Made by a program: the position numbers and the translations under genes
NCBI GenBank assembly: GCA_016199745.1
Contig: JACQFZ010000028.1
Location: 1-64,000 of the forward strand
Length of the DNA stretch: 64,000 bases
Direction of reading: 5' to 3'
Source of the DNA: Gammaproteobacteria bacterium
Lineage (GTDB): Bacteria; Pseudomonadota; Gammaproteobacteria; Acidiferrobacterales; Sulfurifustaceae
Notes under the pieces: model-generated
Databases searched by the model: none
Seen by the model: only the letters and a program-made list of their open reading frames with translations
Told to the model about the DNA's origin: nothing
In this document: piece after piece, positions 14,091 to 41,691 of the stretch
Layout: every line of letters begins with the position of its first letter
Numbering within the stretch: position 1 is the stretch's first letter

Positions 14091-14116
14091 AATAATTAAT
14101 CATTTGTTTAATTATT
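14091..14116. promoter_or_regulatory. Candidate operator of the TetR-family regulator
   Basis: Perfect 9-bp inverted repeat AATAATTAA-N8-TTAATTATT, flanked by a slightly offset TGGT/ACCA pair, immediately before the regulator start codon. Likely the autoregulatory site of the downstream TetR protein. Confidence 0.6.
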
Positions 14117-14124
14117 ACCATTGC

Positions 14125-18749: not shown

Positions 18750-18798
18750 ATCAAGATTTTCATAGGCGTCCAAGGACAGGGCATGAGCTTCGTTCAAA

Positions 18799-19010: not shown

Positions 19011-19025
19011 TAGGGAAAATCTGAA

Positions 19026-20141
19026 ATGAAATTCCTCTGGCAACGCGCCGGCGCCATCGCCAAAAAAGAAACTCGCCACGTATTGCGCGATCCGTTCACG
19101 CTCGCGTTGTCGATCGGCTTGCCGGTGTTCATGGTGTTCGTTTTCGGCTTCGCCATCGAGTTCAACGTCAAAGACATTCATCTGGCGGTGCACGACGCCG
19201 ATCGCAGCCAGGCATCGCGTCGCTTGATCGACACCTTCGGTAGCTCACACTACTTCGTTATCGACAACATCGCGTCGCCGGACTTGGCGCTGCGCAGTAT
19301 CGCCGGCGAGCGCGATCGGGCGGCGCTCATTATCCCGGCAGGCTTCGAGCAGGATCTGCTGGCCAGCCGGCGCGCACGCGCGCAGGTTTTGCTCGACGGT
19401 TCCGACAATTCCACGGTCGGCCCGATCCTGAGCTACGTCGCGTCGATTCAAACCATCGCCGGCAAACGCATCGCTAACTTCGATCCGCCAACACCGATCG
19501 ACTTCAAAACGCGCTACCTGTTTAACGCCGAGCTCAACAGCCGCTGGTTCATCATTCCCGGGCTGGCGGTGGTGGTCATGGCGATCTTGTCGGTGCTGCT
19601 GACGGCACTGACGGTCGCACGCGAATGGGAGAACGGCTCGATGGAATTATTGTTGTCGACGCCGACGCAACCGCTGGAAATCATCGTCGGCAAACTCGCG
19701 CCGTATGCGGTGCTCGGTCTTACCGCGGTCGCGTTCGTTTATCTCATTTCACGCACCGTGTTCGGCGTGCCGTTCGTTGGCAGCCATCTGGTTTTCTTGG
19801 CGGGCTGTATTCTGTTCCTGGCCACTTATCTCGCACAGGGGTTGCTGATTTCGGTCGTCACCCGCAAGCAACAGATCGCCATGCAAATTGCCATCATGTC
19901 GGGCCTGCTACCGGCGCAATTGCTCTCCGGTTTTATTTTTCCGATCGAGAGCATGCCGACTTTTTTTCAGTACTTCACGATGATCCTGCCGGCGCGCTGG
20001 TTCATGACTATCGCTCGCGAATCGTACCTCAAAGGCTCGACATTTCTCGACATGGCCGGCCCGTTCCTGGCGCTCGCGATCTTGTGCACGATCATGATCG
20101 TGCTCGCGACCAGTAAATTCAAAAAGGATCTGGAGCCATGA
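19026..20141 (+). CDS. ABC-2 type permease 1 (YbhS-like)
   Basis: 371 aa. Begins KKETRHVLRDPFTLALSIGLPVFMVFVFGFAIEF, the typical ABC-2 cytosolic helix and first membrane span, then a ~140-residue periplasmic domain, and five more spans from ~residue 170 (for example IPGLAVVVMAILSVLLTAL and AVLGLTAVAFVYLIS). The EWENGSMELLLSTPTQPLEIIVGK motif is the ABC-2 coupling region. Forms the membrane pore with the next gene. Separated from its ATPase by the 276-bp stretch that holds a repeat element. Confidence 0.92.
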   Translation: MKFLWQRAGAIAKKETRHVLRDPFTLALSIGLPVFMVFVFGFAIEFNVKDIHLAVHDADRSQASRRLIDTFGSSHYFVIDNIASPDLALRSIAGERDRAALIIPAGFEQDLLASRRARAQVLLDGSDNSTVGPILSYVASIQTIAGKRIANFDPPTPIDFKTRYLFNAELNSRWFIIPGLAVVVMAILSVLLTALTVAREWENGSMELLLSTPTQPLEIIVGKLAPYAVLGLTAVAFVYLISRTVFGVPFVGSHLVFLAGCILFLATYLAQGLLISVVTRKQQIAMQIAIMSGLLPAQLLSGFIFPIESMPTFFQYFTMILPARWFMTIARESYLKGSTFLDMAGPFLALAILCTIMIVLATSKFKKDLEP

Positions 20142-21241
20142 TGTCGACCCTACGGGGATTTTTGCGCAAAGAGTTCAAGCAAGCGTTGCGCGACCCACGC
20201 ATGCGCATCCTGCTGTTCGTGGCGCCGCTGATCCAACTGACGCTGTTCGGCTTCGCCATTTCCAACGACGTTAAGAATATACGGCTGTGGGCGCAGCCGA
20301 CCGCCGGCGACACCGTGTTGCGTGACATTTACCAGCGTAGCATCGCCAGCGGACGCTTCGTGCCGGCCAGCATCGACCGTAATACCGATCCGTTCGATTT
20401 GCTGCGCGCCGGCAAAATCGATGTGGCGCTGGTGCCGCCGCCCGGCGGTCTCACGCGCGCACTCGGGCGCGGGCGCGCCGATCTGCAAGTGTTGATCGAC
20501 GCCACCAACGTCATCCAGGCGCAATCGATCGAGGCTTACTTGCGGAGTATTTCGGCGTTGGCGCTAACCGACAACGCTCACATCGTCGCCGCCGAGACAC
20601 CGATTCAACTCGATAGCCGTGTGCTCTACAACCCGACGCTCGAAACCTCGCACTTCATGATTCCGGGCGTGATGTGCATGCTGATGTGCATGATGTCGAT
20701 CATCCTCACGAGCATGTCGATCACGCGCGAAAAGGAAACCGGCACGTTCGAGATGTTGATCTCGGCGCCGGTGACAGCGTCCGAGATCATCTTCGGTAAA
20801 ACGATTCCTTACGTCGTTCTCGGCATGAGCAATCTGCCGCTGATTCTCGGCGTCGCTGTGCTCGGCTTCGGCGTGCCGGTACGCGGTTCGCTGCTAGTGC
20901 TGACGCTGGCGGCGTTCGCTTTCGTCTGCACCGCCGTCGCCATCGGCACACTGATCTCGACCATCGCCCGCAATCAACAACAGTCCATGCTCGCCGGATT
21001 TTTGTTTTTGTTTCCGGCGATCTTGCTGTCTGGATTAATGTTCCCGCTGGAAAATATGCCGGAAGTGCTGAAGTGGGTTTCCTACCTCGACCCGCTGTCG
21101 CATTTTCTCGGGCTGCTGCGCAACATCATGCTGAAGGGCGGCGAACCGTTGTTCGTCGCGCAACACGTCGGTGTGCTGCTGTTGATGGCGGCGCTATCGG
21201 TGTTTTTTAGCTTTAAGCGATTCCACACGACGCTGCAATAA
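20138..21241 (+). CDS. ABC-2 type permease 2 (YbhR-like)
   Basis: 367 aa, paralogue of permease 1 with the same plan: FLRKEFKQALRDPRMRILLF, first span, periplasmic domain, then five spans including VMCMLMCMMSIILTSMSI and the coupling motif REKETGTFEMLISAPVTASEIIFGK. Overlaps permease 1 by 4 bp. Ends 23 bp from the convergent GGDEF-EAL gene, with no clear terminator between them. Confidence 0.92.
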   Translation: MMSTLRGFLRKEFKQALRDPRMRILLFVAPLIQLTLFGFAISNDVKNIRLWAQPTAGDTVLRDIYQRSIASGRFVPASIDRNTDPFDLLRAGKIDVALVPPPGGLTRALGRGRADLQVLIDATNVIQAQSIEAYLRSISALALTDNAHIVAAETPIQLDSRVLYNPTLETSHFMIPGVMCMLMCMMSIILTSMSITREKETGTFEMLISAPVTASEIIFGKTIPYVVLGMSNLPLILGVAVLGFGVPVRGSLLVLTLAAFAFVCTAVAIGTLISTIARNQQQSMLAGFLFLFPAILLSGLMFPLENMPEVLKWVSYLDPLSHFLGLLRNIMLKGGEPLFVAQHVGVLLLMAALSVFFSFKRFHTTLQ

Positions 21242-21264: not shown

Positions 21265-24240
21265 CTACGAGATCGACCGCTTGCTCGCGCGCGCGGATTG
21301 CCAAGCAGGTTCGGGGCGGGATCCATTGCTGCTTGGCAGAATCCTTTCGACCTGCGTCGCCGGTACCGGTGCACTAAAGAGATAGCCCTGGATAGCATGG
21401 CAGCCGCAGTGCTTCACGAAATCGAGATCGGTTTGTGCTTCCACGCCTTCGGCGACGATATACAAGTTCAGGCGCTGCGCCATGTCGACAATGCCGGCAT
21501 ACAGTTCGCCGGCACGCGGATCGGCAACGCTGATGAGAAACGATCGGTCGATCTTGACGACGTCGACCGGGAAATCCTTGATATAGCTCAAGCCCGAGTA
21601 GCCGATACCGAAATCATCGATGGCGATGCGAATGCCGATCTCGCGCAGCTGCTGCAGCGTGCGCTGCGCGACCGAAGGGTCGTGCATGATGGCGCTCTCG
21701 GTGATCTCCAGCTCCAATCGGTTCGGTGCCAATCCCGTCTCCAGCAATACCTCGCGTACCTGATCGACGATGTCGGCGTGCCGTAGTTGTATCGCCGACA
21801 GATTGACGGCGATGCGGCCGACGCCGAAACCAGCATCCGACCATGCCTTGGCTTGCCGACAGCTTGCGCGCAACACCCACCTGCCGAGACCATGAATGAG
21901 GCCGGTCTGCTCGGCGATGGGAATCAATTCCGCCGGCGGGATGGGACCAAGCTGCGGATGTGGCCAACGCAACAGTGCTTCCCACGAGACGATCTCGCCG
22001 GTGCGCAGATCCTGCTGCGGCTGGAAATGCAGCACGAATTGATCGTTGTCGAGCGCCTGCTGTAGCTCACCGACGATGCGCGCGCGCCGCATCGAACTCA
22101 CGTGCATTTCGTCTGAGTAGAATTCACAACGCTCGTCGCGGTGACGCTCCTGCGCGTAGTAACGCGCCGCCGCCGCGTTCTTGAGCAACATCTCCGGCGT
22201 GTCGCCGCCTTCCGGCGTCAGCGCGACGCCGATCGAAACGCCGACTTCGATCATGTGGCCGTGCATTTCGAGCGGCTGCGACAGCGCGCGGAAAATACGA
22301 TTGAGCAACGAGCGCACCTCGTCTTTGCCGGCGATGCCGCTGATAACGATACCGATCTCATCGAGCCGCAGACGCGACACCCGCCACCCGAATTTACCGG
22401 CACTAGCTGCTGCATCAATCTGGCGCAGCTCGTCTTGCAACCGATTGCCAATGACTTGCAGCAACGTATCGCCGACGCTGGCACCCAGCGTATCGCTGAC
22501 GCGGCGAAACTGGTTCGGTACGAGCGACATGACAGCGACGCTCTTATGGGTTTGCCGGTGGCCTTCGCGCAATGCGCGCTCCATCCAGTCGATAAATTCC
22601 ATACGCTGCATGATCGTCGATGCGCCGCTCGCGGAAAGCGCCTGCTCCATGGGCGCCGGCGTAATGCGTTGCGAAGCGTCCAAGACGCTGCTTAAACCGA
22701 CGCGCTCGCCGGCACGGCGCAGGCTTGGTTGCAGATCGGCCGGCGCTTCGATGGCGCTGCTCCATTGAACGACCCGGTTGCGGCCGGTCGATTTGGCCGC
22801 GTATAGCGCCTGATCGGCCTGGGTAATGAGACCGCTGCTGGTGTTGACGCCGGATTGCGCCGACGACAGGCCGACGCTGATCGTGACGGCGAGTTCGCTA
22901 CCGAAACGCAACGTCGACTTCTCTTCGATCGCGCGGCAAAGTCGTTGGCCAATGACGTCCGCCTGAAAAACATCCAAACCGGGCAACACGACGCAGAATT
23001 CTTCACCGCCGTAGCGGCAGATCGAGCCACTATCGTCGACCAGCGACTGGATATTCTCCGCCACCCAATGCAGCACCTTATCGCCGATATCATGGCCGAA
23101 GCGGTCGTTGATCAACTTGAAATAATCGATATCGATCATGAGACAGGACAGCGCCATGCCTTCGGTCTCGGTCTTACCGCACAACGGCTCGAACATGGCG
23201 AAGAAGGCGCGGCGGTTGAGACAGCCGGTGAGCGGATCGCGCGTGGCGAGTTGATAGAGCTCTTCGTTCTTATTCTTGATTTCGCGCTCGGACTCTTTGA
23301 GCAGATCGATCGTGCTGTTCAATTCCTGGTTCTTCTTCTCGAGCGCGGTAACGTCGTCGAATGTGACGATCGCGCCGCGCGGTTGGTGGCGCTCGTCCAG
23401 TATCGGCGTGCTGTTGATCACGAACACTTGGGTCTCACCTTGACCACTGGCGGCGAGCCGCAAAAACGCGCGCGCTTGCGTCTCACCGGCGGTCAGCGTC
23501 TGCGCCCACGGCAATATTTTCGGCTTCGACTTCTCGACGGCGTCGAGCCATTCGAGCTGTGCTGCCTTTATACCGATCAAGGCATCGGCGGAACGCCCGC
23601 ACTTTTGCGCGAACACGGCATTGGCGAGGACGATGAAGCCGTCGCGATCGAGAATCAGCACGCCTTCGGCCAGCGCATCGAACGCCGAGCGGATGCGCTG
23701 CGGAATCGTTCCGCGCGGGTCGAGCTCGCGTAACGCCCGTCGCAACGTCACATAGAAAATGCCGAGCCCGATCATGCCGGTGAACAACGCCAACCCCCAA
23801 ACCGAATGACGTAGCCAACCGAGCACACCTTGATATACCGGCGCAAAACTGACCTCGACCGCGCCCCAACGCTGCTCGCCGGCAAACACCGGCACCAACA
23901 CGTGCGTCAATGTCGATCGATCCGTGTCCGGCGGCGACCAGTATTTCGCATGCTCCGGCGTTTCGCTGAAGATGCTGCCGTCGGCCCGACGTATCGCTGC
24001 CGACAGCACGTCCGGATTGCGCGTCGCAAAAACATCCAACGTCTGCTTCACCAGATCAATGTCCGAACGAGTGACGGCGATCGATAGCTGCACGGCGAGC
24101 GACTCGCAACTGCGCTTGCGAATTTCGAGCGCGGCAAATCGAGCGTCGGGGACGAAGCCGGCGAGATCGGCAAACAGCACTAGGCTCACGGTGATGAGCG
24201 CCATGCTGAGCGTCAAACGAAAAGTCGGTGACAGGCGCAT
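21265..24240 (-). CDS. Membrane-bound GGDEF-EAL c-di-GMP enzyme with PAS domain
   Basis: 991 aa from ATG 24240. The frame is open to 24465, but the conserved start MRLSPTFRLTLSMALITVS overlaps the stop of the giant gene as TGATG, so translation is coupled. Order: TM (res ~10-30), periplasmic sensor (~30-150), TM (~150-170), PAS (~190-330), active GGDEF with GGEEF near residue 410, a second, degenerate GGDEF (LRLDEIG in place of the motif, ~550-690), and EAL (~720-960) with EALLRW, ITESAIMHD and DDFGIGYS intact. It can probably both make and break c-di-GMP, or sense one and do the other. Its coupling to the giant surface-protein gene suggests a LapD-like or local signalling role. Confidence 0.93.
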   Translation of the reverse strand: MRLSPTFRLTLSMALITVSLVLFADLAGFVPDARFAALEIRKRSCESLAVQLSIAVTRSDIDLVKQTLDVFATRNPDVLSAAIRRADGSIFSETPEHAKYWSPPDTDRSTLTHVLVPVFAGEQRWGAVEVSFAPVYQGVLGWLRHSVWGLALFTGMIGLGIFYVTLRRALRELDPRGTIPQRIRSAFDALAEGVLILDRDGFIVLANAVFAQKCGRSADALIGIKAAQLEWLDAVEKSKPKILPWAQTLTAGETQARAFLRLAASGQGETQVFVINSTPILDERHQPRGAIVTFDDVTALEKKNQELNSTIDLLKESEREIKNKNEELYQLATRDPLTGCLNRRAFFAMFEPLCGKTETEGMALSCLMIDIDYFKLINDRFGHDIGDKVLHWVAENIQSLVDDSGSICRYGGEEFCVVLPGLDVFQADVIGQRLCRAIEEKSTLRFGSELAVTISVGLSSAQSGVNTSSGLITQADQALYAAKSTGRNRVVQWSSAIEAPADLQPSLRRAGERVGLSSVLDASQRITPAPMEQALSASGASTIMQRMEFIDWMERALREGHRQTHKSVAVMSLVPNQFRRVSDTLGASVGDTLLQVIGNRLQDELRQIDAAASAGKFGWRVSRLRLDEIGIVISGIAGKDEVRSLLNRIFRALSQPLEMHGHMIEVGVSIGVALTPEGGDTPEMLLKNAAAARYYAQERHRDERCEFYSDEMHVSSMRRARIVGELQQALDNDQFVLHFQPQQDLRTGEIVSWEALLRWPHPQLGPIPPAELIPIAEQTGLIHGLGRWVLRASCRQAKAWSDAGFGVGRIAVNLSAIQLRHADIVDQVREVLLETGLAPNRLELEITESAIMHDPSVAQRTLQQLREIGIRIAIDDFGIGYSGLSYIKDFPVDVVKIDRSFLISVADPRAGELYAGIVDMAQRLNLYIVAEGVEAQTDLDFVKHCGCHAIQGYLFSAPVPATQVERILPSSNGSRPEPAWQSARASKRSIS

Positions 24241-27200
24241 CAGCCGATCTCGTCGGTATCGGTGGCTGCGCCCGGGCGCACCGGAAACAATTTGCGTAAC
24301 GCGCGCTCGCGGTGATCGTGCATGACGGCGAGATGCTCCTTGGTCGCTTCCTCGCGTTCGTTTTTGCGACGCCGACGGGCGAGGATCGGCAATGGATCGA
24401 AACGGTTCCACAGCGGTGTCGTCGCGATCAGGCTCGCGGCCAGGGCGCCGCCGCGCAGGATCCAAGAAATAAAGCCGACGGTGAGAATGGCGCCGCTGAA
24501 TGTCGTGGCGCTCGTAAACAGCGGCGTTGAACCTTCGCGCAACTGTGTGCGCATATCGTCGAGCGCGCGACCGAGGGCGTTGAACGAATGCACGTTGCCG
24601 GGAGCTGGTATCGACGAAGCCGTCACCGGACCCCTTGACGAAACGGATGCGGTGAACGACGCGCTCGCGTTTACGTCAGGCACCATCGACGCCGTTCGCT
24701 GGGTGGCGGCGAGACTCGGGTTTGAGGTCGGTTTCGCGCTAGGCAGTGGCCGCCATGTGCTGACATAGGGAACATCGGTCGTTACACCGCCGTCGACTCC
24801 CATCACCGGTGGCGTTGATGGCGCCGGCGAACTTATCGGCGCCGGCGGTACCGGCGCTCCGCCGTTTACCGGCGGCGCTGGTGACGTGACCGGATCCGGC
24901 GGGATGACGAGCGTCACTGTGATCGCGAAGCTCGATCCGACCATAGCGCCGCTGCCGTCGGCGACGATGAAACCAAAAACGTCAGTCGCCGCGGTCGTAT
25001 TGTTGTGGCGATAGCTCACTCGATTGGCGTTGAGATCCGCTTGCGTAAACGTGTCATTGAGGCCTAAAGCAACACCGTCGAGCTGCAACACACCCGCTGT
25101 CGGCAACGCCGTCAGCGTGTAAACCAATTGCACGTCGCTGTTATCAACGTCGGTGGTCGCGAGCTGCAGCGGTGTTACCGTCGCGTTCGCACCTTGGAGC
25201 AGCGTCAGCCCGGTATTCGTCGCCAGCACCGGCGCATCGTTCACCGGTGTCACGTCGATCGTCAGCCGGTTCGGGCTGGCGGCGAAGCACGCGCTTTGAT
25301 CGCACACCGAGAACCTAATGCTCGCATAGGCAACACCGTTCGCATTTGCCGCCGACGTGTAGACGAAATTACCGGCGACCAGGTCGGCCGCGGTGACGAT
25401 TTGTCCGGCGCTGACCGCCGCGCCGGCGAGTGTCAGCGTACCGTTCACCGGCAACATATCGATGCGCACCGCGCTCAAGCTGTCGCCGACGTCGGCATCA
25501 TTGAAACCGAAGTCAGTAACGTCGAACACATACGCGACGTCTTCAGCGGTTGTGATAGTGGCGTCGCTGCCGGTAGGTGCGGTGTTGGCAGTCGCGACAC
25601 TGACGCTGATCGCTTGCATGTCGGTACCGCCGTTACCGTCGGCGACTTGCACGGTGACGTCGTAGATATTGTCGGCACCAACATCGGTGGGTGTACCGAA
25701 GATCGGCGCGACGACGAAAACCAACGCGCCGGTCGTACTGTCGATCGCAAAGTGCGCGGCATCGGCGCCACCGACGATCGAATAGGTCAGCGTCGGCGCT
25801 GGCACGTCGACGTCGGTGGCGGTAACGGTGGTGACGGCGGTGGTGCCCTCGGCCACCGAAATTGCTGCCGTCGCGGCGGCGCCGTTCGAGGTGATCACCG
25901 GCGTATCGTTGACCGCGGTGATCACGATTGACGCCGTTTCGGTCGTGCTCGAGAACGAGGAGCTACCGCCGTTGACCGAGGTATTGGCGAGCGCGCCGTT
26001 GGCGCCGGTCGTCCGGTCCCAGGCGCGGAACGTGAGCACGTCGGAAACGGTGCCGTTGAAATCGGCGGCCGGTCGGAAATAGAGGCGGGTGTTGGCATCG
26101 GCGGCGAGCAGCCGCGCGTTGGTGTTGCTGACCGCGCCTAAGTTCAACCAATTCGCGCCGCCGTCAGTCGTGTACCACCAGTCGGTTGTGAACCCGGTAA
26201 AGCCATAGGTGGTATCGGCGCCGGTGACGGCGATGCCGAGCAAAGCGCCGGCGTCGGGATCGCTGATGTTGTCGATTTGGCCGCTCGGGCTGGCGAAATC
26301 AACCAGACTCGAGACCAAGGTGCCGACAGCGCCGACCGGGGCCGGCGAATCTTCGTTCTCGGTGCTGAGCACCGGCGAGTTCGCGTAGGCGTAGCGCTGC
26401 ATGAACACGCCATCGTTATCGCCGCTGCCGTTGCCATTCCACACCACCACCATATGACCGATGTCATCGACGGCGATGCGGGCGTTTTGTTGATTGCCGG
26501 AGGTCGTCGAGCTAACGCGCGTCTCACCGCTGATCGCGTTGCCACTGGCGTCGTACTCGTGCAGGTACACACCGTAACCGCTGCCGTCTTGGTTGATGCT
26601 TTGCCAAGCGATAACGAAGCCGCCGGAGGAACGCATCGTCACCGTCGGATATTGCTGCCAATCGGCGGTCGTTACATTAACCAGGAACTCGCTGCCCTGG
26701 GCGGCACCGGCTGAGTTGTAGCATTGGGCGCAGATGCCCCAACCATCGCCGTCATTGTTTCGGCTGTGCCACGTCACCACGAAGTTGCCGGTGGCGTCCA
26801 TCGCCACCGCCGCGTCCATCTGATCGTTGGCGGTGGTGGTATTGACGCGGAACTCGCCGCCTTGGGCGACACCGGCAGCGTTATAGCGCTGTGCATAGAC
26901 GCCCCAACCGCTGCCGTCATTGCTTTGCCAGACAACGACAAAATTGCCGACGCTGTCCATCGCCACCACCGGAACGGATTGCCCATTGATCGTGGTATTG
27001 ACGCGGAACTCGCCGCCTTGGGCGACACCGGCAGCGTTATAGCGCTGTGCGTAGACGTTGTAACGCAGACCGAGATCCAGATTGGTCCAGGCGATGACAA
27101 AGTTGCCGCTGGCATCGATCGCGATCGAAGGAGTGCTCTGATCTCCTACCGTCGTGGTATTGACGCGGAATTCCCCGCCTTGCGCCACGCCGGCGGCGTT

Positions 27201-32938: not shown

Positions 32939-33661
32939 TCAGTGCGGGGCAAAACGCACTTTGCAGCGTAACCCGCTGGGAATCGCCTGGGTTGGGTTCG
33001 GAATTTCAAGACGGACGGCGAACGTGCCGCTGGCGCCATCGATCACTTTGTCGACGACGGTAACGGTCGCATTCAACGGCCCGACGCTGCCGAGCTCGGG
33101 TTGCACCTGCGCGCTCATTCCTTTTTGAATTTGTCCGAACGCGGATGCCGGCAACACCAGCTCGATGCGCAACGGATTGATCTGCACGAGCTTGAGGATG
33201 GTCTTGTCTTTCACCGATTCGCCCGGCGACAAATAGCGCTCGGCGACGACACCGCTGATCGGACTACGGATGATGCGCAGATTGAGCGTCTCGCGCGCGT
33301 GGCGCATTTGCTGCTCGCTTATCCGCGCGTTGGCATCGGCTTCGTCTTTATCGCTGAACGGAATCGCGTTCTTGGCATACAGCTGTTGCGCGCGCGATTG
33401 CTTGCGCTTGTCGAACTCGGACTTGGTCTCGGCCAGCGCCAACGCCGCCTCCTCAACACCGGCGCGCAACTTGACCAGCTCCTGACCTTGCTTAACGACG
33501 GCGCTGCGATCGACCGCGATTGATTCGATAACGCCGTCGACCGAACTGCGTAGCTCCACGGTCATGTTCGGTTCAATGAGACCTTCGAACTCGGATATCG
33601 GCGGCGCGGCGAACGCGTTGGTCGCGAGTAGCAACCACAAATAGAATCCTAGGCGCTGCAT
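32939..33661 (-). CDS. Periplasmic HlyD-type adaptor of the surface-protein secretion locus
   Basis: 240 aa from ATG 33661, with a signal peptide (MQRLGFYLWLLLATNAFA) and no transmembrane anchor. Then lipoyl half 1 (FEGLIEPNMTVELRSSVDGVIESIAVDRSAVVKQGQELVKL), a short hairpin (~95-135), lipoyl half 2 (SPISGVVAERYLSPGESV) and a beta-barrel (LVQINPLRIELVLPASAFGQI). The longer upstream frame is just the inverted repeat of the DUF559 element. It is the third HlyD-like polypeptide in this locus and sits between the SecA-like gene and the giant gene. Probably bridges an inner-membrane component and TolC. Confidence 0.88.
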   Translation of the reverse strand: MQRLGFYLWLLLATNAFAAPPISEFEGLIEPNMTVELRSSVDGVIESIAVDRSAVVKQGQELVKLRAGVEEAALALAETKSEFDKRKQSRAQQLYAKNAIPFSDKDEADANARISEQQMRHARETLNLRIIRSPISGVVAERYLSPGESVKDKTILKLVQINPLRIELVLPASAFGQIQKGMSAQVQPELGSVGPLNATVTVVDKVIDGASGTFAVRLEIPNPTQAIPSGLRCKVRFAPH

Positions 33662-33665
33662 CTTA

Positions 33666-34130
33666 TTACTCACTCCCCTCTCCCGCTTGCGGGAGAGGGG
33701 TTGGGGGAGAGGGCGTCCGCTGCTCAACCACCCCCTCTCCCCTTACCCCTCCCCCCAAGGGGGGAGGGGAATCGGGTTCGTTCGGATTTATCGATGAGAT
33801 CGGTTGTACCGCTAGATGAATTGCCTCCAACACAGCCTCCGTCCGTTGCAACACGTCATGATTCCAAAACCGAAGCACGCGATATCCCTGTAAATGCAAC
33901 GACGCATCTCGACGCCGATCCGATTCGGCGTTTTCTTGATGTTGGCCACCGTCTACTTCGATAATCAGTTGGTGTTCATGGCAGACGAAATCGACGATAT
34001 AACCGCCTATAGGCTTCTGCCGTTTGAATTTCAGACCCAGGAAACGATGCGCACGCAGGTGATACCACAGACGCTGTTCAGCATCGGTTTGGTCGCATCT
34101 GAGTTTTTTGGCATTTTCGATTAACGACAT
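33666..34130 (-). CDS. DUF559 endonuclease-like protein carried by a mobile repeat element
   Basis: About 154 aa from ATG 34130 (MSLIENAKKLRCDQTDAEQRLWYHLR). DUF559 proteins have a PD-(D/E)xK/Vsr-like fold; here IGGYIVDFVCHEHQLIIEVDGGQH gives the Asp...Glu-x-Asp catalytic pattern. The reading frame runs on into the right-hand inverted repeat (TPSPPTPLPQAGEG), so the repeat encodes the C-terminus. It is inserted between the SecA-like and HlyD genes, has no functional link to secretion, and is best read as a selfish element. The frame is also open upstream through the other repeat, but that part is not conserved. Confidence 0.8.
   Translation of the reverse strand: MSLIENAKKLRCDQTDAEQRLWYHLRAHRFLGLKFKRQKPIGGYIVDFVCHEHQLIIEVDGGQHQENAESDRRRDASLHLQGYRVLRFWNHDVLQRTEAVLEAIHLAVQPISSINPNEPDSPPPLGGGVRGEGVVEQRTPSPPTPLPQAGEGSE
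33672..33712. repeat. Left inverted repeat of the DUF559 element
   Basis: About 40 bp; its reverse complement matches 34131-34171 at about 38 of 40 positions. Each arm is itself a hairpin (TCTCCCGC/GCGGGAGA). Confidence 0.8.
33729..33770. repeat. Internal C-rich hairpin, second repeat family
   Basis: CCCCCTCTCCCCTTACCCC followed by CTCCCCCC/GGGGGGAG. Nearly the same as 47303-47344, where GCAA replaces part of the loop. Confidence 0.65.
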
Positions 34131-34171
34131 TTCCCTCTCCCCCCACCTCTCTCCCGCAAGCGGGAGAGGGG
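34131..34171. repeat. Right inverted repeat of the DUF559 element
   Basis: Pairs with 33672-33712 (see there). Ends ~15 bp before the stop codon of the SecA-like gene. Confidence 0.8.
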
Positions 34172-34185
34172 ATATAAATACGAAT

Positions 34186-36237
34186 CTATTCAGCGCGGCC
34201 GGAGAACGCCATGCGCTCGTCGCGGCGTTCGTCATCGCGCAGCAACGCGCGGCGTGCGCGGCGATGACGGTGCTCGGCAAGCTGCTGCGCTAACCAGACA
34301 AAACCAGCGCCGAGCCACGTTGGAATCATCGACACGGTGCGGCGCGTGAACCACCGCGGCCAATTCCCTAACTGTAGTCGGATCACGTCGTCTTCGAGCG
34401 AGCCGAAAACTTCATAACTGCCCGGGTCGCCCTGACGCGCGCAGCGGCCGATCAATTGGCGGTCGACGCGGCGCGAGTCGTTAGGCGCGCACAAGATCAC
34501 ATGCAATCCGCCGCGCGCACTGACCTGCTCAGCCAGAACGATGTCGGTTCCGCGGCCAGCCATATTGGTCGCGATCGTTACCTGCGCGGTCTGGCCGGCG
34601 CGGGCGACGATCGCGGCCTCGTCAGCATCTTGGCGGGCGTTGAGTATTTGGTGAACGACGCCGGCGCTATTAAGTAAGGCACTGAGTTGCTCCGACTCGA
34701 CCAACGTGCGCGTACCGACGAGCACCGGCCGGCCGGCGGCGTGCTCGCGCTGAATCGCCTGCACGATTGCCGGCCACTTATCGGCGGCACGTCGAAAATA
34801 GTGCGCACCGCTCGTACGCAACTGACTTGGCCGGTGCCGCGGTACTGTCACGACCGATAGGCCGTATACGCGACGCAACTCGCCGCCCACTTCGCGCAGC
34901 GTGCCCGACATACCCGCGAGTCGCAGATAACGCTGAAAGAAACGCTGATAGCTGATGCGCGCGAGCGGTTGCGGCGGCGCGCTCGGCGGCAGTCCTTCTT
35001 TAACCTCGATCATCTGCTGCAGTCCCTGCTCCCACGAGCGATCCGGTAATGTGCGGCCGGTGTGCTCGTCGATGATTTCGACACGGCCGTTGCGCACCAA
35101 GTAATGCCGGTCGCGCTGATATAAATGACGCGCAGCTAACGCCTGCTCGGTCAGCGCTTCGCGCTTGCGTTGATCGGCCCAGACACTACCGAGCGGGCGA
35201 CCGATCTCAGCCAGTCGACGGGCACCGTTGCGGGTTAAGGCGATACGTCGCGCGGTTTCATCCAGCGTGAAATCGTGACCCGGTTGTAGTTGCTCGGCGA
35301 GCCAGAGCGCCGGTCGGTAGTGCTCGGCAAAACCGTTGTCGCCGCCAGCACCGGCGAGAATCAAGGGTGTGCGCGCTTCGTCGACGAAAATACTGTCGGC
35401 CTCGTCGACGATGGCGAAGTAGAGTCCGCGCAACAGTAGTTGCTCGGTACGACGTTCGCCGGTGCAGAGCGCGCTCAATTGCAAACGCAGCTCGTCGACA
35501 TCACCACCGAGCGTCAGTCGATCGCGCAAGTAATCGAACACCAGTTGTTGGCTAGTGCAGTAGGTAATATCGGCGGCATACGCCGTGCGCCGCTCGCGCG
35601 TGGCGACGTCGGCGGTGACGACGCCAACGCTCAGCCCGAAGCGCCGGTAAATCGGCGCCATCAGTTCCGCATCACGCCGCGCTAGGTAGTCGTTGACGGT
35701 CACAATGTGCACCGGAATGCCAGCGAGCGCGGCGGTGCAAGCCGCGAGCGTGGCCGTGAGGGTCTTACCTTCGCCGGTTACCATCTCGGCAAGCAGGCCG
35801 TCGAGTAGCGCCCAACCGGCAATAACTTGTTGGTCGTGGTGTCGTAACCCGAGCGTGCGCTGCGTCAACTCGCGCACCGTGGCGAACGCGCAGGCAATGT
35901 TTTCCGGTGACAGATGCGCGCGCCACAATCGCCGGCGCAACGCTTGGATCCAGCGTTCCATGTCCGGCTCATTCAGTTGCCGCAGCGCTCGATCGTAGCG
36001 TTCGAGCTCGCGCAAGAATGCCGGCCACTGTCGAACGCGCGCGGCGCGCGGCGGATGCAGCGGTAGCAATAGGCGCTCGAGCGTGCGTTCAAGGCGTTCG
36101 TCAGCGGCAAGACGGCGTTGCGGATAAAGACCAAAGCGCACGCCGGGCCGCAGGAACGGCCGTGCTCGCGCCGCGAACCGCGCGGTGATTTCCGCGGGGT
36201 CGAGCGGCGCTGACGACGGCGTGGGCGCGGAGCTCAT
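34186..36237 (-). CDS. Divergent SecA-like translocase ATPase
   Basis: 683 aa from ATG 36237, against ~900 aa for housekeeping SecA. DEAD-type motor present: EMVTGEGKTLTA (Walker A, ~residue 155), TVNDYLARRDAELM, VDEADSIFVDEARTPLI (Walker B, ~275), GMSGTLREV, NMAGRGTDIVLAEQ and QLIGRCARQGDPG (~595), where SecA normally has QLRGRAGRQGDPG. The wing/scaffold C-terminal third and zinc-binding tail are absent; instead there is a short C-terminal region with a hydrophobic patch (MIPTWLGAGFVWLAQQLAE) and an Arg-rich end. It sits 14 bp after the M50 gene. Most likely a dedicated motor for export of the giant LEPRxLL protein, not the general SecA. Confidence 0.9.
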   Translation of the reverse strand: MSSAPTPSSAPLDPAEITARFAARARPFLRPGVRFGLYPQRRLAADERLERTLERLLLPLHPPRAARVRQWPAFLRELERYDRALRQLNEPDMERWIQALRRRLWRAHLSPENIACAFATVRELTQRTLGLRHHDQQVIAGWALLDGLLAEMVTGEGKTLTATLAACTAALAGIPVHIVTVNDYLARRDAELMAPIYRRFGLSVGVVTADVATRERRTAYAADITYCTSQQLVFDYLRDRLTLGGDVDELRLQLSALCTGERRTEQLLLRGLYFAIVDEADSIFVDEARTPLILAGAGGDNGFAEHYRPALWLAEQLQPGHDFTLDETARRIALTRNGARRLAEIGRPLGSVWADQRKREALTEQALAARHLYQRDRHYLVRNGRVEIIDEHTGRTLPDRSWEQGLQQMIEVKEGLPPSAPPQPLARISYQRFFQRYLRLAGMSGTLREVGGELRRVYGLSVVTVPRHRPSQLRTSGAHYFRRAADKWPAIVQAIQREHAAGRPVLVGTRTLVESEQLSALLNSAGVVHQILNARQDADEAAIVARAGQTAQVTIATNMAGRGTDIVLAEQVSARGGLHVILCAPNDSRRVDRQLIGRCARQGDPGSYEVFGSLEDDVIRLQLGNWPRWFTRRTVSMIPTWLGAGFVWLAQQLAEHRHRRARRALLRDDERRDERMAFSGRAE

Positions 36238-36251
36238 CGGCTGGCGGCCAT

Positions 36252-38393
36252 TTAGTCGGCAACTTGGCGCAGCAATTGACGGCGCAACGCGCGCTGCCAA
36301 CGAAACACCAACGGTTCGTAACCGTGGTCGAAGCGCGCGTAAACACGCGTGCCGATGCGGGTCCAGGCAACGTCGGCCGGCAACGCCAGATCGATTTGAA
36401 AAATCGGCTCGCGCGTGCGCATGCCCGACTCATCGAGCGGATCGACCGTAATACCGTTCGGTGCCGCGAGCGCGCGGCTCGGTAGTCGATCGATAGCGCC
36501 ACCGACTTGGCGCAACAGGTGCGCCGCCACTTCCGCGCCCGGCGCGTCGGCCGGCATGATCGTGACGGCGCGCGTGTCGCGGCGAATCGAGCCGATGTCG
36601 GCTTGCCGCACGACGATGCGCGCGGTGAGCGCGTTCCGATCGACGACGAAACCGATGACCTCGCCTTGTTTGACGAAGCGTCCCGGCAAATTTGTGGCGT
36701 CGGGAATTACCAACGTACCGGCGGTACCGGCACGGAGAATTTGCTCGGCGGCACGCTCGCGCAGACGCGCCAATGTTCCATCGGCGGCCCGCAGCTGTTG
36801 CTGCATGCCGGCGGCGGCAACGCGATCGGTCTCGATCAGCGCGTAGTAGCGCCGCTCAAGCTCGCGCTGCTCGGCCTCGAGCGCACGCAATTGCAATTCG
36901 ACGTCGGGATCGACAATACGCACGAGCGCGTCGCCCGGCTGCACCGCGCTGGCGTCGGCCAGCAGCACTTCCTCGACGAAACCATCGGCACCCGCGCGAA
37001 CTTGGGCTTGCTCCGGCAACCACACCACACCGACCGCGTGCGTCGACAGCGGCAACGGCAGCGCAATCAACGCTAGCAACAACATCGCCGCACCGCCGAA
37101 CGCCGTCAGTAGCGCGCGCCGCCGCTGACCTTGTAGCAACGGACTACGCAATACGAAGCGCGCGCCGTTGAACAACGGATGCGCGACCTGCACGACCAAC
37201 AGCCACAGCGCGAGCGCGATGCCGAGCACGAGGTAGCTGGAACTCAAATATAAAACGACGGCGATGCCGATACCGATGCGGTAAACGAACGCTGCCAAAC
37301 CGTAGACGATGAACCAGCCGCGCTCGCCGGCGACACTGACCGGCGATTCCGTGGTACGCAAACCAAACAAATAGCGTTGCGCGAGATAAGCGTAATAACG
37401 CGTGGCGCGTGCACCGAGTCCGGGGATACCGATGGCGTCGGTCAGCACGTAGTAGCCGTCGTAGCGCAGCAGCGGATTGCCGTTGAACAACGCCGTCGAC
37501 ACACCGCCAATCAACATGAGGTCGAGCGCGATGTCGCGCACGACGCCGGGTTGCAGCACGATCCACGCGAACAACGCCAACGCGGCGATGAAAAGCTCGA
37601 CGCCGACACCAGCGGCGGCGACGATCATGCGCCGTTGCCGCTCAGGAAATGCCGACGCCGCCGACGCGTTCACATAAGGTACCGGCACGAACACGAGCAA
37701 CATCAGGCCGACTTCGTGTACCGCGCCGCCCCACACTTTAGTGGCGCAGGCATGGCCGAGCTCATGCACTGTCTTCACCAACGGGTAGAGCGCGGCCAAC
37801 AACCATAAGTTATTCGGCGTCAGCGCCTGATCGGCGGCATGCGCGGCGATGGCCGGGCCGTGCTTGAGCGCGAGCAGCGCGGCGACGGCGACCGTCGCCA
37901 GCCACACGATCGCAAACGTCCTACTGAAGAGCGGCCTAACCCACGGCAGCGCCCGCTGCAAGAATCGATCGGGATCGAACAGCGGTAACCGCAGTGACAA
38001 CGGATTCAACATCAGATTACGCCAACGATGGCGTGCAGCTCGTTGCTGGCGCTCGAATAACGCGGCGGTGTCGGGCGGTAAATCGCCCAACAACAGATCG
38101 GCCGCATGCAGTTGGCTGAGTAACTGAATGACTTGTGTCTGCGTCGGCGCAGCATCGCCGAGCTCGGCGACGGCGCGCTGGCAAATCTGCTCGACCGTGA
38201 GCACACCATCCATCGGCGCGATCAACGCTTCGGCGTCACGATTAAAGCGATATTGACGGCCGGCGGCGGTGTCTTCGAGCACGCACCAGGCGCCGTCACG
38301 GTAGTGATGCCGATGCACACGCGCGTGCGGCGGCAATCGCGGGCGTAGCTTAGCGACGCGATACCAGTGGGGACTGAATAACGGTTCAGCCAT
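36252..38393 (-). CDS. PqqD-like / M50 zinc protease / lipoyl-HlyD fusion membrane protein
   Basis: 713 aa from ATG 38393 (AAGGGA Shine-Dalgarno). Residues ~35-115 look PqqD-like (WCVLEDTAAGRQYRFNRDAEALI...QVIQLLSQLHAADLL), a fold used to bind leader peptides. Then come several membrane spans with an M50 site-2 protease core: HELGH near residue 210 and NGNPLLRYDGYYVL near 305 supply the zinc ligands (His, His, Asp). After a last span (ALLTAFGGAAMLLLALIALPL) the C-terminal ~250 residues are lipoyl/hairpin/beta-barrel of a HlyD adaptor (QVRAGADGFVEEVLLADASAVQPGDALVRI). So recognition, possible cleavage and periplasmic bridging are joined in one chain. Role in handling the giant protein is inferred from context. 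Confidence 0.88.
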   Translation of the reverse strand: MAEPLFSPHWYRVAKLRPRLPPHARVHRHHYRDGAWCVLEDTAAGRQYRFNRDAEALIAPMDGVLTVEQICQRAVAELGDAAPTQTQVIQLLSQLHAADLLLGDLPPDTAALFERQQRAARHRWRNLMLNPLSLRLPLFDPDRFLQRALPWVRPLFSRTFAIVWLATVAVAALLALKHGPAIAAHAADQALTPNNLWLLAALYPLVKTVHELGHACATKVWGGAVHEVGLMLLVFVPVPYVNASAASAFPERQRRMIVAAAGVGVELFIAALALFAWIVLQPGVVRDIALDLMLIGGVSTALFNGNPLLRYDGYYVLTDAIGIPGLGARATRYYAYLAQRYLFGLRTTESPVSVAGERGWFIVYGLAAFVYRIGIGIAVVLYLSSSYLVLGIALALWLLVVQVAHPLFNGARFVLRSPLLQGQRRRALLTAFGGAAMLLLALIALPLPLSTHAVGVVWLPEQAQVRAGADGFVEEVLLADASAVQPGDALVRIVDPDVELQLRALEAEQRELERRYYALIETDRVAAAGMQQQLRAADGTLARLRERAAEQILRAGTAGTLVIPDATNLPGRFVKQGEVIGFVVDRNALTARIVVRQADIGSIRRDTRAVTIMPADAPGAEVAAHLLRQVGGAIDRLPSRALAAPNGITVDPLDESGMRTREPIFQIDLALPADVAWTRIGTRVYARFDHGYEPLVFRWQRALRRQLLRQVAD

Positions 38394-38457: not shown

Positions 38458-40206
38458 CTACGGCAACCATGACCACCACTTCAAGCGCAGCCAGTTAATG
38501 AGCGAGCGTGTCCAGATGGAAATCAATTGCCGCGAGTCGATATCGATTTTGGCGATGCCTTGCATGCCGGGGCGTAAATAATTCAGCGGTTTGTCGAGCT
38601 TGGCCTCGACCCGGAAATAATTGGCATGCGCATCCGTGCTCGCCACCGGCGTGATGCGCTCGACCACGATCGCCAGCGCCTCGTCCGGCATCGCCGTCAA
38701 CGTCAGCCGTCCGCGTTGACCGGCGCGCACGTCGGCAATATCGGTTTCATCGACTTTCAAGATCACGCGGTAGTCATCGAGCGGCGCCAGCTTGAACAGC
38801 ACTTGCCCGCGTTCGACCGGCGAGCCGAGCGCTTGGCTGAAGTCGCCGCTGATAACGATGCCGTCGAACGGTGCGATCAGCTGCGCCCGACCGAGCTGCT
38901 TCTCGGTGAGCGCGAGTTGCGATTCGGCTTGCGCTAGCTGTGCGTTCAGCACGCCGATTTGGATGCGGTCATGCTCGGCGAGCGCGCGCCGATATTCCTG
39001 CAACACCTGCTCCTGCTTCGCCGACCACTTCAGCTGTTCGAGTTTGAGATCGCGGTCGTCCAGCGCCGCGAGCACCGCACCTTGGGTGACGACATCGCCC
39101 GGCCGCGCGCTGACGCTTTGCAGAAATCCTTTTTGCGGCGCGGCGACGATGCGTTCGATACGTCCTTCGAGCAACGCGTCGGCGGTGACTTGATACTGAC
39201 CGGAAATGACCGTCAGCAGCACTAACAGCAAGACGACCGATCCGCCACCGAGCTTGGTAAGTAAATGTCCCGGGCCGAACCAACGTTGCCATTGCGCGTG
39301 CGCCGCATCGCCGATCATCGACAGTAATCCACGATCCTCGGAACGACGTAATTGCAAAATCGGGCCAACGAGCAGCGCAATCTGCTCGAACAAACGCGCG
39401 TTGTCGGCGTCCCACGACGATTGCGCGGCACTGCGCTCGAATGTCAGCGCACCGAGCAAGCTCTGCCGATGATGCAACGGGATCGTGCAGATCGCGCTGC
39501 TTTGTTGCCAGCGCGCGAGTTCGGCATGCGCGATCGGGACGCGGGTGTTCGGCACCGGCGGATGCAACACGGTGGTCTCGTGTTCAAGCGCTTCGTCCAT
39601 TGCCGCTTCGAGTTGCCGCGCGAGCTGCTGCCGTTGCGAGAAGCCGGCGTTGTTGGCGAGCGCTTGCAGCTTGATATGGCGACCGTGGATCACGCCGAGG
39701 CTAACGCGATCGCAACCAAGTCGTGCCGCCAGCTCGGTCACGAGCGTGGTCGCCGCCGCCGCAAACGAATCGGCCGTCAAGCAGGCGGCGACCAGGTCGA
39801 GCACAGCGCCCAATTGCTCGGTGCGTTTCGGTGTTGCCGGCAATTCGAGTTGGTCGAGCCATAAACTGCCGACCTGCAACATTTGCGCAAGCGGTGCGCG
39901 TTGCTCATTCGTCAGGCGTGGAACCTCGAACACAACGGCACCGTAAATTTTTCCATCGCGCACGAGCGGCGCCGCGAGCATTTCATGTTCGCTGTCGTTG
40001 CCGGCGGCGAACAAAAATTGGCCGTGCTGAATCGCGCCGCGCGCGGCGGCGGTCATGACCGGGCTAACGGCGTAGTCCGCCGGCGACACTGCCGTCGCCG
40101 TGCAGCTGCCATCGGCTGCGCCGACAAAAACGACCCCTTTGGCCGTGGCGTCGATAAGCCGGCACTGAACCGAAAGCCAATGGTTTACGGGGGCGCTCCC
40201 TAGCAT
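38458..40206 (-). CDS. GAF-domain / HlyD adaptor fusion, first gene of the secretion operon
   Basis: 582 aa. Residues ~10-115 and ~130-290 look like two cytosolic GAF-type sensor domains (for example LGCDRVSLGVIHGRHIKLQALAN and ICTIPLHHRQSLLGALTFE). A single span at ~320-342 (GGSVVLLLVLLTVISGQYQV) leads into the periplasmic HlyD part: lipoyl halves around ALLEGRIERIVAAPQKGFLQSV and LIAPFDGIVISGDFSQALGSPV, hairpin between, and a beta-barrel ending in YLRPGMQGIAKIDI. A fused sensor-adaptor is unusual and suggests that export is gated by a cytosolic ligand. First gene after a sigma-54 promoter at 40245-40261. Confidence 0.88.
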   Translation of the reverse strand: MLGSAPVNHWLSVQCRLIDATAKGVVFVGAADGSCTATAVSPADYAVSPVMTAAARGAIQHGQFLFAAGNDSEHEMLAAPLVRDGKIYGAVVFEVPRLTNEQRAPLAQMLQVGSLWLDQLELPATPKRTEQLGAVLDLVAACLTADSFAAAATTLVTELAARLGCDRVSLGVIHGRHIKLQALANNAGFSQRQQLARQLEAAMDEALEHETTVLHPPVPNTRVPIAHAELARWQQSSAICTIPLHHRQSLLGALTFERSAAQSSWDADNARLFEQIALLVGPILQLRRSEDRGLLSMIGDAAHAQWQRWFGPGHLLTKLGGGSVVLLLVLLTVISGQYQVTADALLEGRIERIVAAPQKGFLQSVSARPGDVVTQGAVLAALDDRDLKLEQLKWSAKQEQVLQEYRRALAEHDRIQIGVLNAQLAQAESQLALTEKQLGRAQLIAPFDGIVISGDFSQALGSPVERGQVLFKLAPLDDYRVILKVDETDIADVRAGQRGRLTLTAMPDEALAIVVERITPVASTDAHANYFRVEAKLDKPLNYLRPGMQGIAKIDIDSRQLISIWTRSLINWLRLKWWSWLP

Positions 40207-40368: not shown

Positions 40369-41691
40369 ATGTGGCGTAAGGCAGTGCTAGTCGTGGCTTC
40401 CTGCTTCGTCGTTTTCACACCGGCTTGGTCGGCCGGTGCACCTGGCTTACCCGAAATTTATGCACTGGCGCTGCAGAAAGCGCCGGAAATGCGAGCCGCC
40501 GCGGCAGCGTTCGCCGCTACCGATGCGGCACGCAGTCAGAGTTTGCGCGCGTTGCTGCCATCGCTGTCGGCAAGCGCGGAATCGGCCAAGAACCGGCAAG
40601 ACGTGCTCGAGACCGGCGTGGGTAACACCGGCGAATTTCGCTTCGACAGCAATACCTACACCCTGACCTTGCGCCAGCCGGTGTTTCGCCGCGACTTGTT
40701 CACGCATATTGACCAAACGACGGCGCAGATCACGCAGGCGCAAGCGGAGTACCGCGCCGTGCAGCAAGCCTTTATCGTGCGTGTTGCTGAACGCTATTTC
40801 GAGGTTCTGGCAGCACAAGATAATCTCGAATTTGCACGCGCGGATCGCACGGCGGTGGCACGTCAGCTTGAACAAATCCGCGTGCGCCACAGCATCGGCG
40901 TCGGCGCACTCACCGATTTACGCGAAGTCGAAGCGAGTCACGATCTCGCGATCACGCAAGAGATCGATGCCGAGTCGCGTTTGACCAGCGCCGAAGAAGC
41001 GTTACGCGAGCTTAGCGACAACTATCCGCAGCCGTTGCGCCGGCTCAACATCGAAATCCCGTTGCTCGCCCCCGAGCCGGCAACGCTCGATGCGTGGAGC
41101 CGACTGGCCGAGCAGGAAAATCAAAAACTGCTCGCCGCCACCGGTGCGGCGCGCGTGGCCGAACAGGAAATCGCTCGTCAGCGCGCCGGTCACTACCCTT
41201 CGCTCGATCTGGTCGCGACGTCGTCGAAAACAGAGAGCGGTGGGCGTTTCGGCGACAGCGATATCAAGGACAACGCGATTGCGCTGCAGCTCAACGTACC
41301 GCTGTACTCGGGCGGCCAGATCAGCGCGCAAGTACGTGAAGCCCAGGAACGTTACACCGAAGCCCGTGAGCGCGCCGAGCAGCAACGGCGCGCCGTGATC
41401 CGCCAAACCAGCGACGCTTACCGCGCCGTGATCGCCAGCATCAGCCGCGTCGGCGCACTAACGCGCTCGATCGCTTCGACCGAAGCGGCACTCGATGCTG
41501 TCGAAACCGGATTCCAGGCGGGAACACGCACGGCGGTCGACGTTCTTGGCGCGAAGCGGACGCTACTGCGCACCCAACGCGACCATGCAGCCGCGCACTA
41601 CACCTATATATTGAATACCTTGCGCCTTAAGGAGGCGGTCGGCACATTGTCACAAGCGGACATAACAGCACTCGCCGGCTGGTTCAATTAA
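40369..41691 (+). CDS. TolC-family outer-membrane channel
   Basis: 440 aa. Signal peptide ending ...FTPAWSA-GAPG, then two OEP repeats as in type I secretion channels: LPEIYALALQKAPEMRAAAAA, LRQPVFRRDLFTHIDQTTAQI, and the second half with LQLNVPLYSGGQISAQVREAQERY and GFQAGTRTAVDVLGAKR. Transcribed divergently from the GAF-HlyD/M50/SecA operon, sharing a 162-bp intergenic region with back-to-back sigma-54 promoters, so it should be the outer-membrane exit of the same system. No ABC exporter accompanies it. It differs from the lipidated NodT protein at 14.8 kb in having no lipobox. Confidence 0.92.
   Translation: MWRKAVLVVASCFVVFTPAWSAGAPGLPEIYALALQKAPEMRAAAAAFAATDAARSQSLRALLPSLSASAESAKNRQDVLETGVGNTGEFRFDSNTYTLTLRQPVFRRDLFTHIDQTTAQITQAQAEYRAVQQAFIVRVAERYFEVLAAQDNLEFARADRTAVARQLEQIRVRHSIGVGALTDLREVEASHDLAITQEIDAESRLTSAEEALRELSDNYPQPLRRLNIEIPLLAPEPATLDAWSRLAEQENQKLLAATGAARVAEQEIARQRAGHYPSLDLVATSSKTESGGRFGDSDIKDNAIALQLNVPLYSGGQISAQVREAQERYTEARERAEQQRRAVIRQTSDAYRAVIASISRVGALTRSIASTEAALDAVETGFQAGTRTAVDVLGAKRTLLRTQRDHAAAHYTYILNTLRLKEAVGTLSQADITALAGWFN

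Follow-up and report, generated by a model that had tools for sequence, protein, structure and literature searches.

A tandem-GAF HlyD adaptor in a conserved gene neighbourhood that may serve the export of giant LEPR-XLL proteins

The window analysed here is a stretch of 64,000 nucleotides (contig JACQFZ010000028.1 of assembly GCA_016199745.1, positions 1 to 64,000) from a gammaproteobacterium of the Sulfurifustaceae. It contains a gene encoding a HlyD-type adaptor preceded by two GAF domains (GAF-HlyD), which is followed on the same strand by genes for an M50 metalloprotease fused to a second HlyD adaptor (M50-HlyD), a SecA-like ATPase, a small third HlyD-type adaptor and a giant LEPR-XLL protein, the presumed cargo (Table 1). 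The analysis of this locus and of its counterparts in other genomes suggests that GAF-HlyD probably serves as an adaptor in an envelope-spanning exporter dedicated to giant LEPR-XLL proteins.

The first-pass annotation, made from the letters of the window alone, had described the gene as a pair of GAF domains joined through a single span to a HlyD adaptor, and the open reading frame (ORF), the Pfam matches and the fold matches all agree with this description, on the minus strand. In the 582-residue protein, Pfam recognises a GAF domain at residues 150-281 (E 2e-11) and, both above cut-off, HlyD_3 at 443-547 (8e-19) and HlyD_D23 at 352-548 (2e-17). Hydropathy gives a single convincing span at 316-334, so that the protein would cross the inner membrane once; a second, weaker window (132-150, 1.62) falls inside a helix of GAF2. 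The AlphaFold2 model was built on an alignment of 72 rows (the window, five relatives and 66 of the 80 loci described below, 14 partial or repeated rows having been excluded) and has a mean pLDDT of 90.3 and a pTM of 0.56, meaning that its domains are sound and their mutual placement is not. GAF2 (residues 125-292) matches a GAF domain with Z 17.6 (3ci6; root-mean-square deviation (rmsd) 2.9 over 151 residues). Residues 1-124 match no Pfam GAF model; modelled alone they reach a pLDDT of 89.0 and resemble GAF-fold proteins (Z 13.8 with 4mn7, rmsd 2.6 over 117; Z 13.0 with 3ci6), as well as IclR (Z 12.7) and Roadblock (Z 11.9, 3kye), while the profile comparison of GAF1 with GAF2 gave a weak local match only (probability 66). 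By its model, GAF1 is a short, divergent GAF. The idea that the earlier GAF call was an over-reading was discarded, since structure prediction of the N-terminal ~300 residues returned a GAF fold for both halves.

The other half of the protein resembles MacA, EmrA and MexA in both sequence and structure searches, the structural matches including a MacAB-TolC entry (Z 17.4, 9qgy chain G) and Escherichia coli MacA (Z 16.7, 3fpp). Its score with TIGR01730, the model of the RND adaptor subfamily, is 93.9 bits, just below the curated cut-off of 94.9. Foldseek with the full model gave adaptors alone among the 50 matches listed, and the PDB sequence search with the GAF-HlyD protein returned adaptors and a few weak unrelated rows; one with a further protein query, P0002, gave nothing at 0.01. 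The premise that adaptors have as a norm no cytosolic domain was too strong: what is unusual here is the tandem GAF, not the presence of a cytosolic part, and PMC8277102 ascribes "sizable cytoplasmic domains" to the adaptors that serve ABC, MFS and type 1 systems.

Table 1. Genes and features of the window, with positions on the 64,000-nucleotide stretch
Feature	Position	Strand	Remarks
GAF-GAF-transmembrane (TM)-HlyD adaptor	38458..40206	minus	582 aa, ATG at 40206; Pfam and fold matches
Domain map of the GAF-HlyD adaptor (residues)			GAF1 ~5-121; GAF2 ~125-292; span ~316-334; adaptor 335-560; W-rich C-terminal helix 561-580
PqqD-like + M50 metalloprotease + HlyD fusion	36252..38393	minus	HELGH, NPLLRYDG; begins 64 bp past the GAF-HlyD gene
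SecA-like ATPase	34186..36237	minus	DEAD motor, preprotein cross-linking domain, second ATPase domain; without the SecA C-terminal third
DUF559 gene	33674-34172		Between the SecA-like and small HlyD genes
Small third HlyD-type adaptor	32939..33661	minus	ORF listed from 33727; ATG at 33661 chosen in this analysis
Giant protein, 2849 aa	24240..32789	minus	LEPR-XLL, DUF4347, cadherin-like repeats, C-terminal hydrophobic segment and basic tail; presumed cargo
TM-sensor-TM-PAS-GGDEF-EAL protein	21265..24240	minus	GGEEF and EALLRW motifs; first ATG overlaps the giant-gene stop codon
TolC-type outer-membrane channel	40369..41691	plus	Divergent from GAF-HlyD; 311 bits with TIGR01844 (cut-off 225)
Separate TetR, outer-membrane factor (OMF), HlyD, ABC-2 efflux cluster	14077-21241	plus	

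The fusion recurs well beyond the window. Among 96 relatives searched, it is whole or nearly whole in five other genomes and, in one more, cut by a contig end; the identities of the five are 69 and 58% (same family), then 44, 35 and 28%, and its presence in several relatives indicates that it is no annotation accident. A local oddity was likewise rejected as an explanation, homologous fusions being widespread in these relatives, in genome contigs and in a sample of 299 genomes. The search of genome contigs with GAF-HlyD confirmed 520 places, of which the best 80 (the "80 loci") were retained; ranking followed similarity to the fusion as a whole, and the set is therefore biased towards it and cannot tell how often the GAF part is absent. 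Homology to the GAF region (>40 bits) was detected in all of these best 80 of 520 places, and the phyla represented, by record or tree label, include Pseudomonadota, Thermodesulfobacteriota, Myxococcota, Nitrospirota and Rokuibacteriota. Thioclava pacifica (L073) and Geomonas paludis (L108) are among the cultured carriers.

Across several phyla these loci share one gene order: GAF-HlyD, M50-HlyD, the SecA-like ATPase and, in many cases, a small third HlyD. Within the best 80, M50-HlyD immediately follows GAF-HlyD in 76 of the 77 testable loci and the SecA-like gene comes next in 67 of 70, and a small HlyD lies after the SecA-like gene in 39 of the 57 loci with 1.2 kb of room. In L172, from a genome of the same family, the window's arrangement is found again: a divergent TolC gene, GAF-HlyD, M50-HlyD, the SecA-like gene and a DUF4347 giant gene. 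No ABC exporter, RND or MFS gene was seen in the conserved gene set, the search for an ABC exporter being confined to the compared stretches rather than whole genomes. The likeness of the adaptor half to MacA, EmrA and MexA would also suit a conventional adaptor, of the efflux or type 1 kind, with GAF domains gained by chance and an incidental neighbourhood; this explanation is very improbable, given a gene order kept across several phyla, the fact that the window's ABC-2 genes (within 17092-21241) have OMF and HlyD genes of their own (14799-17095), and a clustered ABC ATPase family that appears in only five of the 87 stretches compared.

The link with the giant proteins emerges from the 299 genomes, which belong to the window's phylum and are each at least 95% complete. 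Thresholds were E <=1e-30 for GAF-HlyD and E <=1e-40 for M50-HlyD, and at most four and three first-look candidates per genome, respectively, were scored, so that extra copies or absences may be wrong. LEPR-XLL was found in 33 genomes, GAF-HlyD in 30 and M50-HlyD in 67. Both LEPR-XLL and GAF-HlyD occur in 25 genomes, LEPR-XLL only in eight and GAF-HlyD only in five (Fisher p 1e-24). In G174, G127, G314, G355, G116 and G134, six of the 30 GAF-HlyD genomes, the match begins no earlier than residue 117 of the profile; with the 24 whose match spans the GAFs, the counts are 22 with LEPR-XLL, two without it and 11 with LEPR-XLL only (p 4e-23). M50-HlyD is present in 33/33 LEPR-XLL genomes vs 34/266 others (p 1.6e-25) and in all 30 GAF-HlyD genomes (p 6e-23). 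The 25 genomes with both LEPR-XLL and GAF-HlyD are distributed over 12 families, and the p values ignore shared ancestry. The 96 relatives agree: LEPR-XLL occurs in three, all within the seven fusion carriers, one of them cut by a contig end (p 2e-4). Among 17 further genomes behind the best-80 loci, 12 pass the LEPR-XLL model (NF012209), with which the window's giant protein scores 18.1 bits (cut-off 17), or 25.7 bits in the genome search.

Physical proximity points the same way. In the 299 genomes, 27 of 45 LEPR-XLL hits share a contig with GAF-HlyD, 24 of them within 14 kb and three far off, and 15 of these 27 frames end ~1 kb or less upstream of GAF-HlyD on the same strand, the ends being approximate since they were reckoned from open-frame lengths. 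The longest LEPR-XLL open frame, of 19,427 residues (G154:C115:112865), ends ~1 kb from a GAF-HlyD match.

The partners of GAF-HlyD suggest how such proteins might be handled. The motifs HExxH and NPxxxxD[GA] are present in 70/70 of the M50 ORFs longer than 600 residues, and the window's copy scores 25.0 bits with Pfam M50, under the cut-off of 27.2. Its PqqD-M50 part aligns with positions 2-366 of the 379 of the daptide protease model NF041824 (E 1e-44, 153.2 bits). In PMC10036551 the daptide protease MpaP is described as an intramembrane peptidase that depends on an RRE and cleaves off the leader. Since the alignment spans nearly the whole model and MpaP takes off a leader, the M50-HlyD sequence suggests leader handling. 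LEPR-XLL stands where a leader would be expected in the cargo, whose C-terminal hydrophobic segment with its basic tail would be an equally good M50 substrate.

The SecA-like protein scores above cut-off with PF07517, PF01043 and PF21090 and has a Walker A, a DEAD-type motif, MAGRGTDI and the preprotein cross-linking domain; no further SecA Pfam model (scaffold, wing, two-helix finger) was found in the window's protein up to E 0.1. Its PDB matches mostly stop near residue 642 of 704, corresponding to SecA position ~550-590, with two reaching 691, and 57 of 59 homologues end 78-94 residues past the start of the QLxGR motif. In SecA, the part that is absent here holds the two-helix finger; since the motor is kept and this part is missing, the SecA-like ATPase may not act on SecY as ordinary SecA does.

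A second type of system is found in seven of the eight LEPR-XLL genomes without a GAF-HlyD match; all eight carry M50-HlyD. In G175, G246, G130, G157, G181 and G145 it is accompanied by an adaptor with an open frame of 453-495 residues and by a small HlyD, and in G220 by a shorter adaptor of 446 residues; in G162 the locus is cut short and looks like the GAF-HlyD type. The shorter adaptor has ~180 residues ahead of its span. No Pfam GAF was found in the six that were scanned; a ten-sequence alignment of the region, compared with GAF2 by hhalign, gave probability 66 and E 5.5e-5, and profile comparison with GAF1 found nothing. It is possible, on these alignments, that the shorter adaptor contains a single divergent GAF. 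Stretches of this second type, with a small HlyD, a mid-size adaptor, M50-HlyD and no SecA-like gene found therein, were also noticed at L133, L134, L136-L140, L143 and L146, and some second-type genomes hold the GAF-HlyD type too.

Several observations weigh against a dedicated exporter of the composition outlined above. In the seven second-type genomes only ordinary SecA was found (with the SecA-like model, ordinary SecA scores <=584 bits and six operon copies 592-971, three partial or divergent operon copies scoring 574, 240 and 191), and G242, G355, G104 and G403 carry the fusion with no SecA-like gene found at E 1e-40. A LEPR-XLL protein thus does not always require a tandem GAF, nor always a SecA-like ATPase. 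A hit to LEPR-XLL is missing in five of the 30 GAF-HlyD genomes, as is one to GAF-HlyD in eight of the 33 LEPR-XLL genomes. A TolC gene resembling that of the window is present in five of the 80 loci only, and no gene could be assigned as the inner-membrane pore. PqqD (PF05402) scores 19.1 bits (E 0.0017) in the window's protein, and 22.0 bits in that of L082, under the cut-off of 23.4, and the 153.2 bits with the daptide protease model are short of its cut-off of 300, which places the window's M50 protein outside that family. Lastly, the support consists of association and homology, and related genomes are not independent samples.

The folds, gene order, co-occurrence and neighbours are observed; from them we infer the direction of export, recognition, cleavage and gating along the following lines. 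The N-terminal LEPR-XLL segment of the cargo would act as an address; its recognition would take place in the cytosol, the PqqD-like domain of M50-HlyD being the probable receptor, as with leader peptides in systems for ribosomally synthesised and post-translationally modified peptides (RiPPs). The SecA-like ATPase would feed or push the cargo chain, and the HlyD parts of the adaptors would form a periplasmic conduit to the TolC-type channel, while the M50 active site would cut either the leader or the C-terminal membrane segment of the cargo. The tandem GAF, on the cytosolic face, would be a control or docking module, acting through ligand binding or partner contact; a signal passing from it via helices 267-310 to the span would decide when the conduit engages cargo or ATPase.

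What the GAF pair does can be approached from its conservation. The first-pass annotation had proposed that the domains bind a small cytosolic ligand, possibly a cyclic nucleotide, with cyclic di-GMP (c-di-GMP) as an obvious candidate because of the companion GGDEF-EAL gene, and that this directly gates the export channel. It is known that NKFDE is the signature of cyclic-nucleotide-binding GAF domains. Of this signature, the F-x3-D-E part was compared and is absent from GAF2 (columns 265, 269 and 270; 72 rows): the "D" column is D in 9/72 rows and the next one is V, I or L in 62/72. GAF2 has instead a conserved stretch of its own, AMDEAxDQ, and its most conserved residues are E205 (72/72), S184 (71/72), E257 (71/72) and H227 (70/72); the window's GAF2 keeps E205, H227 and E257 and departs with A184 (S in 71/72), N185 and H209. 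This pattern is common to rows with and without a c-di-GMP label, a label that was given by genome, so that for some rows GAF-HlyD and the GGDEF gene are on different contigs. As many as 47 of the 72 rows fall in two clades without any labelled row, although two rows therein (L006/L037 and L060) do have a flanking GGDEF gene. In the tree, the c-di-GMP-linked loci do not form one clade (9 changes, against a shuffled mean of 10.4; 62/500 shuffles were as low).

The genomic context of c-di-GMP enzymes depends on where it is anchored. Around GAF-HlyD in general, the 738 kb flanking the 80 loci contain 8 GGDEF genes vs 4.1 expected from a density of 700 GGDEF matches per 126 Mb (p 0.058), which is no clear enrichment; the window's genome has 52 GGDEF matches. 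The C-terminal segment of the window's cargo (24243-24752; hydrophobic, then DPLP and a basic tail) was searched for in 30 genomes picked by the author, the window's included, and was found in 16 other places in 12 of the 29 others. Fifteen of these were read and two proved too near an end, leaving 13 testable sites in 11 genomes, three of them from G393. A same-strand GGDEF and/or EAL gene lies within ~7.5 kb downstream at 10 of the 13 sites and in nine of the 11 genomes, against an expectation by GGDEF density of ~0.04 per site. This test was devised after examples had been seen, one of which, L178, is counted; without it the figure is 9/12. The exceptions are L182, L183 and L190, and the genomes of L182 and L190 have a GGDEF gene elsewhere in the locus (L033 and L174). 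Seven of the ten downstream proteins have the architecture seen in the window (TM, sensor, TM, PAS and GGDEF, in some cases also EAL) and retain GGEEF; two others are GGDEF-EAL proteins of the response-regulator kind, and the last, read in part, looks similar to these two. At L178 an EAL ORF (392-1687) was noticed after the GGDEF gene, with an N-terminus that, by eye, resembles a cyclic-nucleotide-binding domain.

A c-di-GMP enzyme beside the window's cargo subclass is thus conserved, and the link is strong there and weak around GAF-HlyD generally; the explanation of the GGDEF-EAL neighbour as a chance one, drawn from the flank counts and from the 52 GGDEF matches of the window's genome, was dropped once the comparison was anchored on the cargo C-terminus. 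As regards the earlier proposal, the association of the enzyme with this cargo type stands and the binding of c-di-GMP by the GAFs is unsupported. Binding of c-di-GMP or some other cyclic nucleotide by the GAF pair, with direct gating of the channel, is unlikely: the GAF fold of both domains and the overlap of the PAS-GGDEF-EAL gene with the end of the cargo gene speak for it, together with the recurrence of such genes behind the cargo C-terminus, whereas the missing F-x3-D-E, the conservation of GAF2 outside c-di-GMP-linked loci and the flank counts speak against it, and the neighbouring enzymes could act via other receptors. In the proposed exporter, the PAS-GGDEF-EAL protein of the window's cargo subclass would bring the production, retention or release of the giant surface protein under the control of c-di-GMP, a signal that need not enter through the GAFs.

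A different role for the GAF pair would be that of a protein-protein module, not a sensor, which docks the SecA-like ATPase or drives adaptor oligomerisation. The similarity of the short, divergent GAF1 to Roadblock-type scaffolds, the regular position of the ATPase gene after the GAF-HlyD/M50-HlyD pair and the strong conservation of GAF2 around AMDEAxDQ are consistent with it. However, the second type, in which no SecA-like gene was found, has a shorter cytosolic domain with a weak alignment to GAF2, and the four genomes named above keep the tandem GAF with no SecA-like gene found. This reading is rather unlikely, yet a serious alternative. Ligand sensor and docking module may both be kept as readings of the pair.

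Other neighbours of the operon deserve mention. The DUF559 gene, on the same strand as its operon neighbours, is flanked by 40-nt inverted repeats, 95% complementary, and the two together are likely to be a mobile cassette within the operon. A DUF3467-type protein of ~118 residues (L037:4606-4959 and related ORFs) is encoded upstream of many GAF-HlyD genes (28 of the 87 stretches compared); one member of this family was confirmed, and none was noticed in the window operon. A SapC-type family, two members of which were confirmed by Pfam, adjoins the operon in five loci (L061:8523-9350, L090, L093, L095 and L107).

If GAF-HlyD belongs to a dedicated exporter, then LEPR-XLL would mark proteins for export by the machinery that the operon encodes; a sensor within the adaptor would give the cytosol direct control over export, and a SecA-like motor lacking the C-terminal third would represent a new use of the SecA ATPase. 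A bolder reading, somewhat less likely than not, is that these loci represent a new kind of secretion system for giant LEPR-XLL proteins in several phyla, with a cut-down SecA-like ATPase in place of an ABC exporter, an adaptor-fused intramembrane peptidase for leader or release, a tandem-GAF cytosolic gate and, in one cargo subclass, a co-encoded c-di-GMP circuit. As a whole, this is a conserved and probable export locus for giant proteins, of which no description has been found so far. In the literature searched, LEPR-XLL receives passing mentions only, and no account of the export of this protein class or of the role of LEPR-XLL was found there; subscription papers and preprints, which lay outside the search, may describe the system.

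The comparison with known systems shows likenesses to several of them. With the MacA and EmrA adaptors, GAF-HlyD shares the lipoyl and barrel domains, a short alpha-hairpin and one N-terminal span, with a TolC-type gene adjacent in the window; unlike them, it adds ~300 residues of cytosolic tandem GAF and has an M50-adaptor fusion and a SecA-like ATPase as partners. The TolC-type channel, recognised by TIGR01844 (Table 1), is also the point of contact with type 1 secretion. LapA, LapD and LapG provide c-di-GMP control of a giant adhesin, and the window likewise has a giant surface-type protein, a GGDEF-EAL membrane protein coupled to it, in which two spans enclose a segment, and an envelope channel; however, the GGDEF-EAL protein keeps the GGEEF and EAL motifs and scores 154.7 with the LapD model NF045673 (cut-off 1020), the protease is of the M50 intramembrane type, and no type 1 ABC gene was seen in the conserved set. 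As in MpaP, a PqqD/RRE-like domain is followed by M50, aligned over nearly the whole NCBIfam model, but the window's M50 is fused to a HlyD adaptor and its presumed substrate is a giant protein instead of a short peptide. Finally, the SecA-like ATPase has in common with SecA and SecA2 the Walker A, the DEAD-type motif, MAGRGTDI and the preprotein cross-linking domain, and differs from them in that its homology mostly ends at about SecA position 550-590, the rest of SecA being absent.

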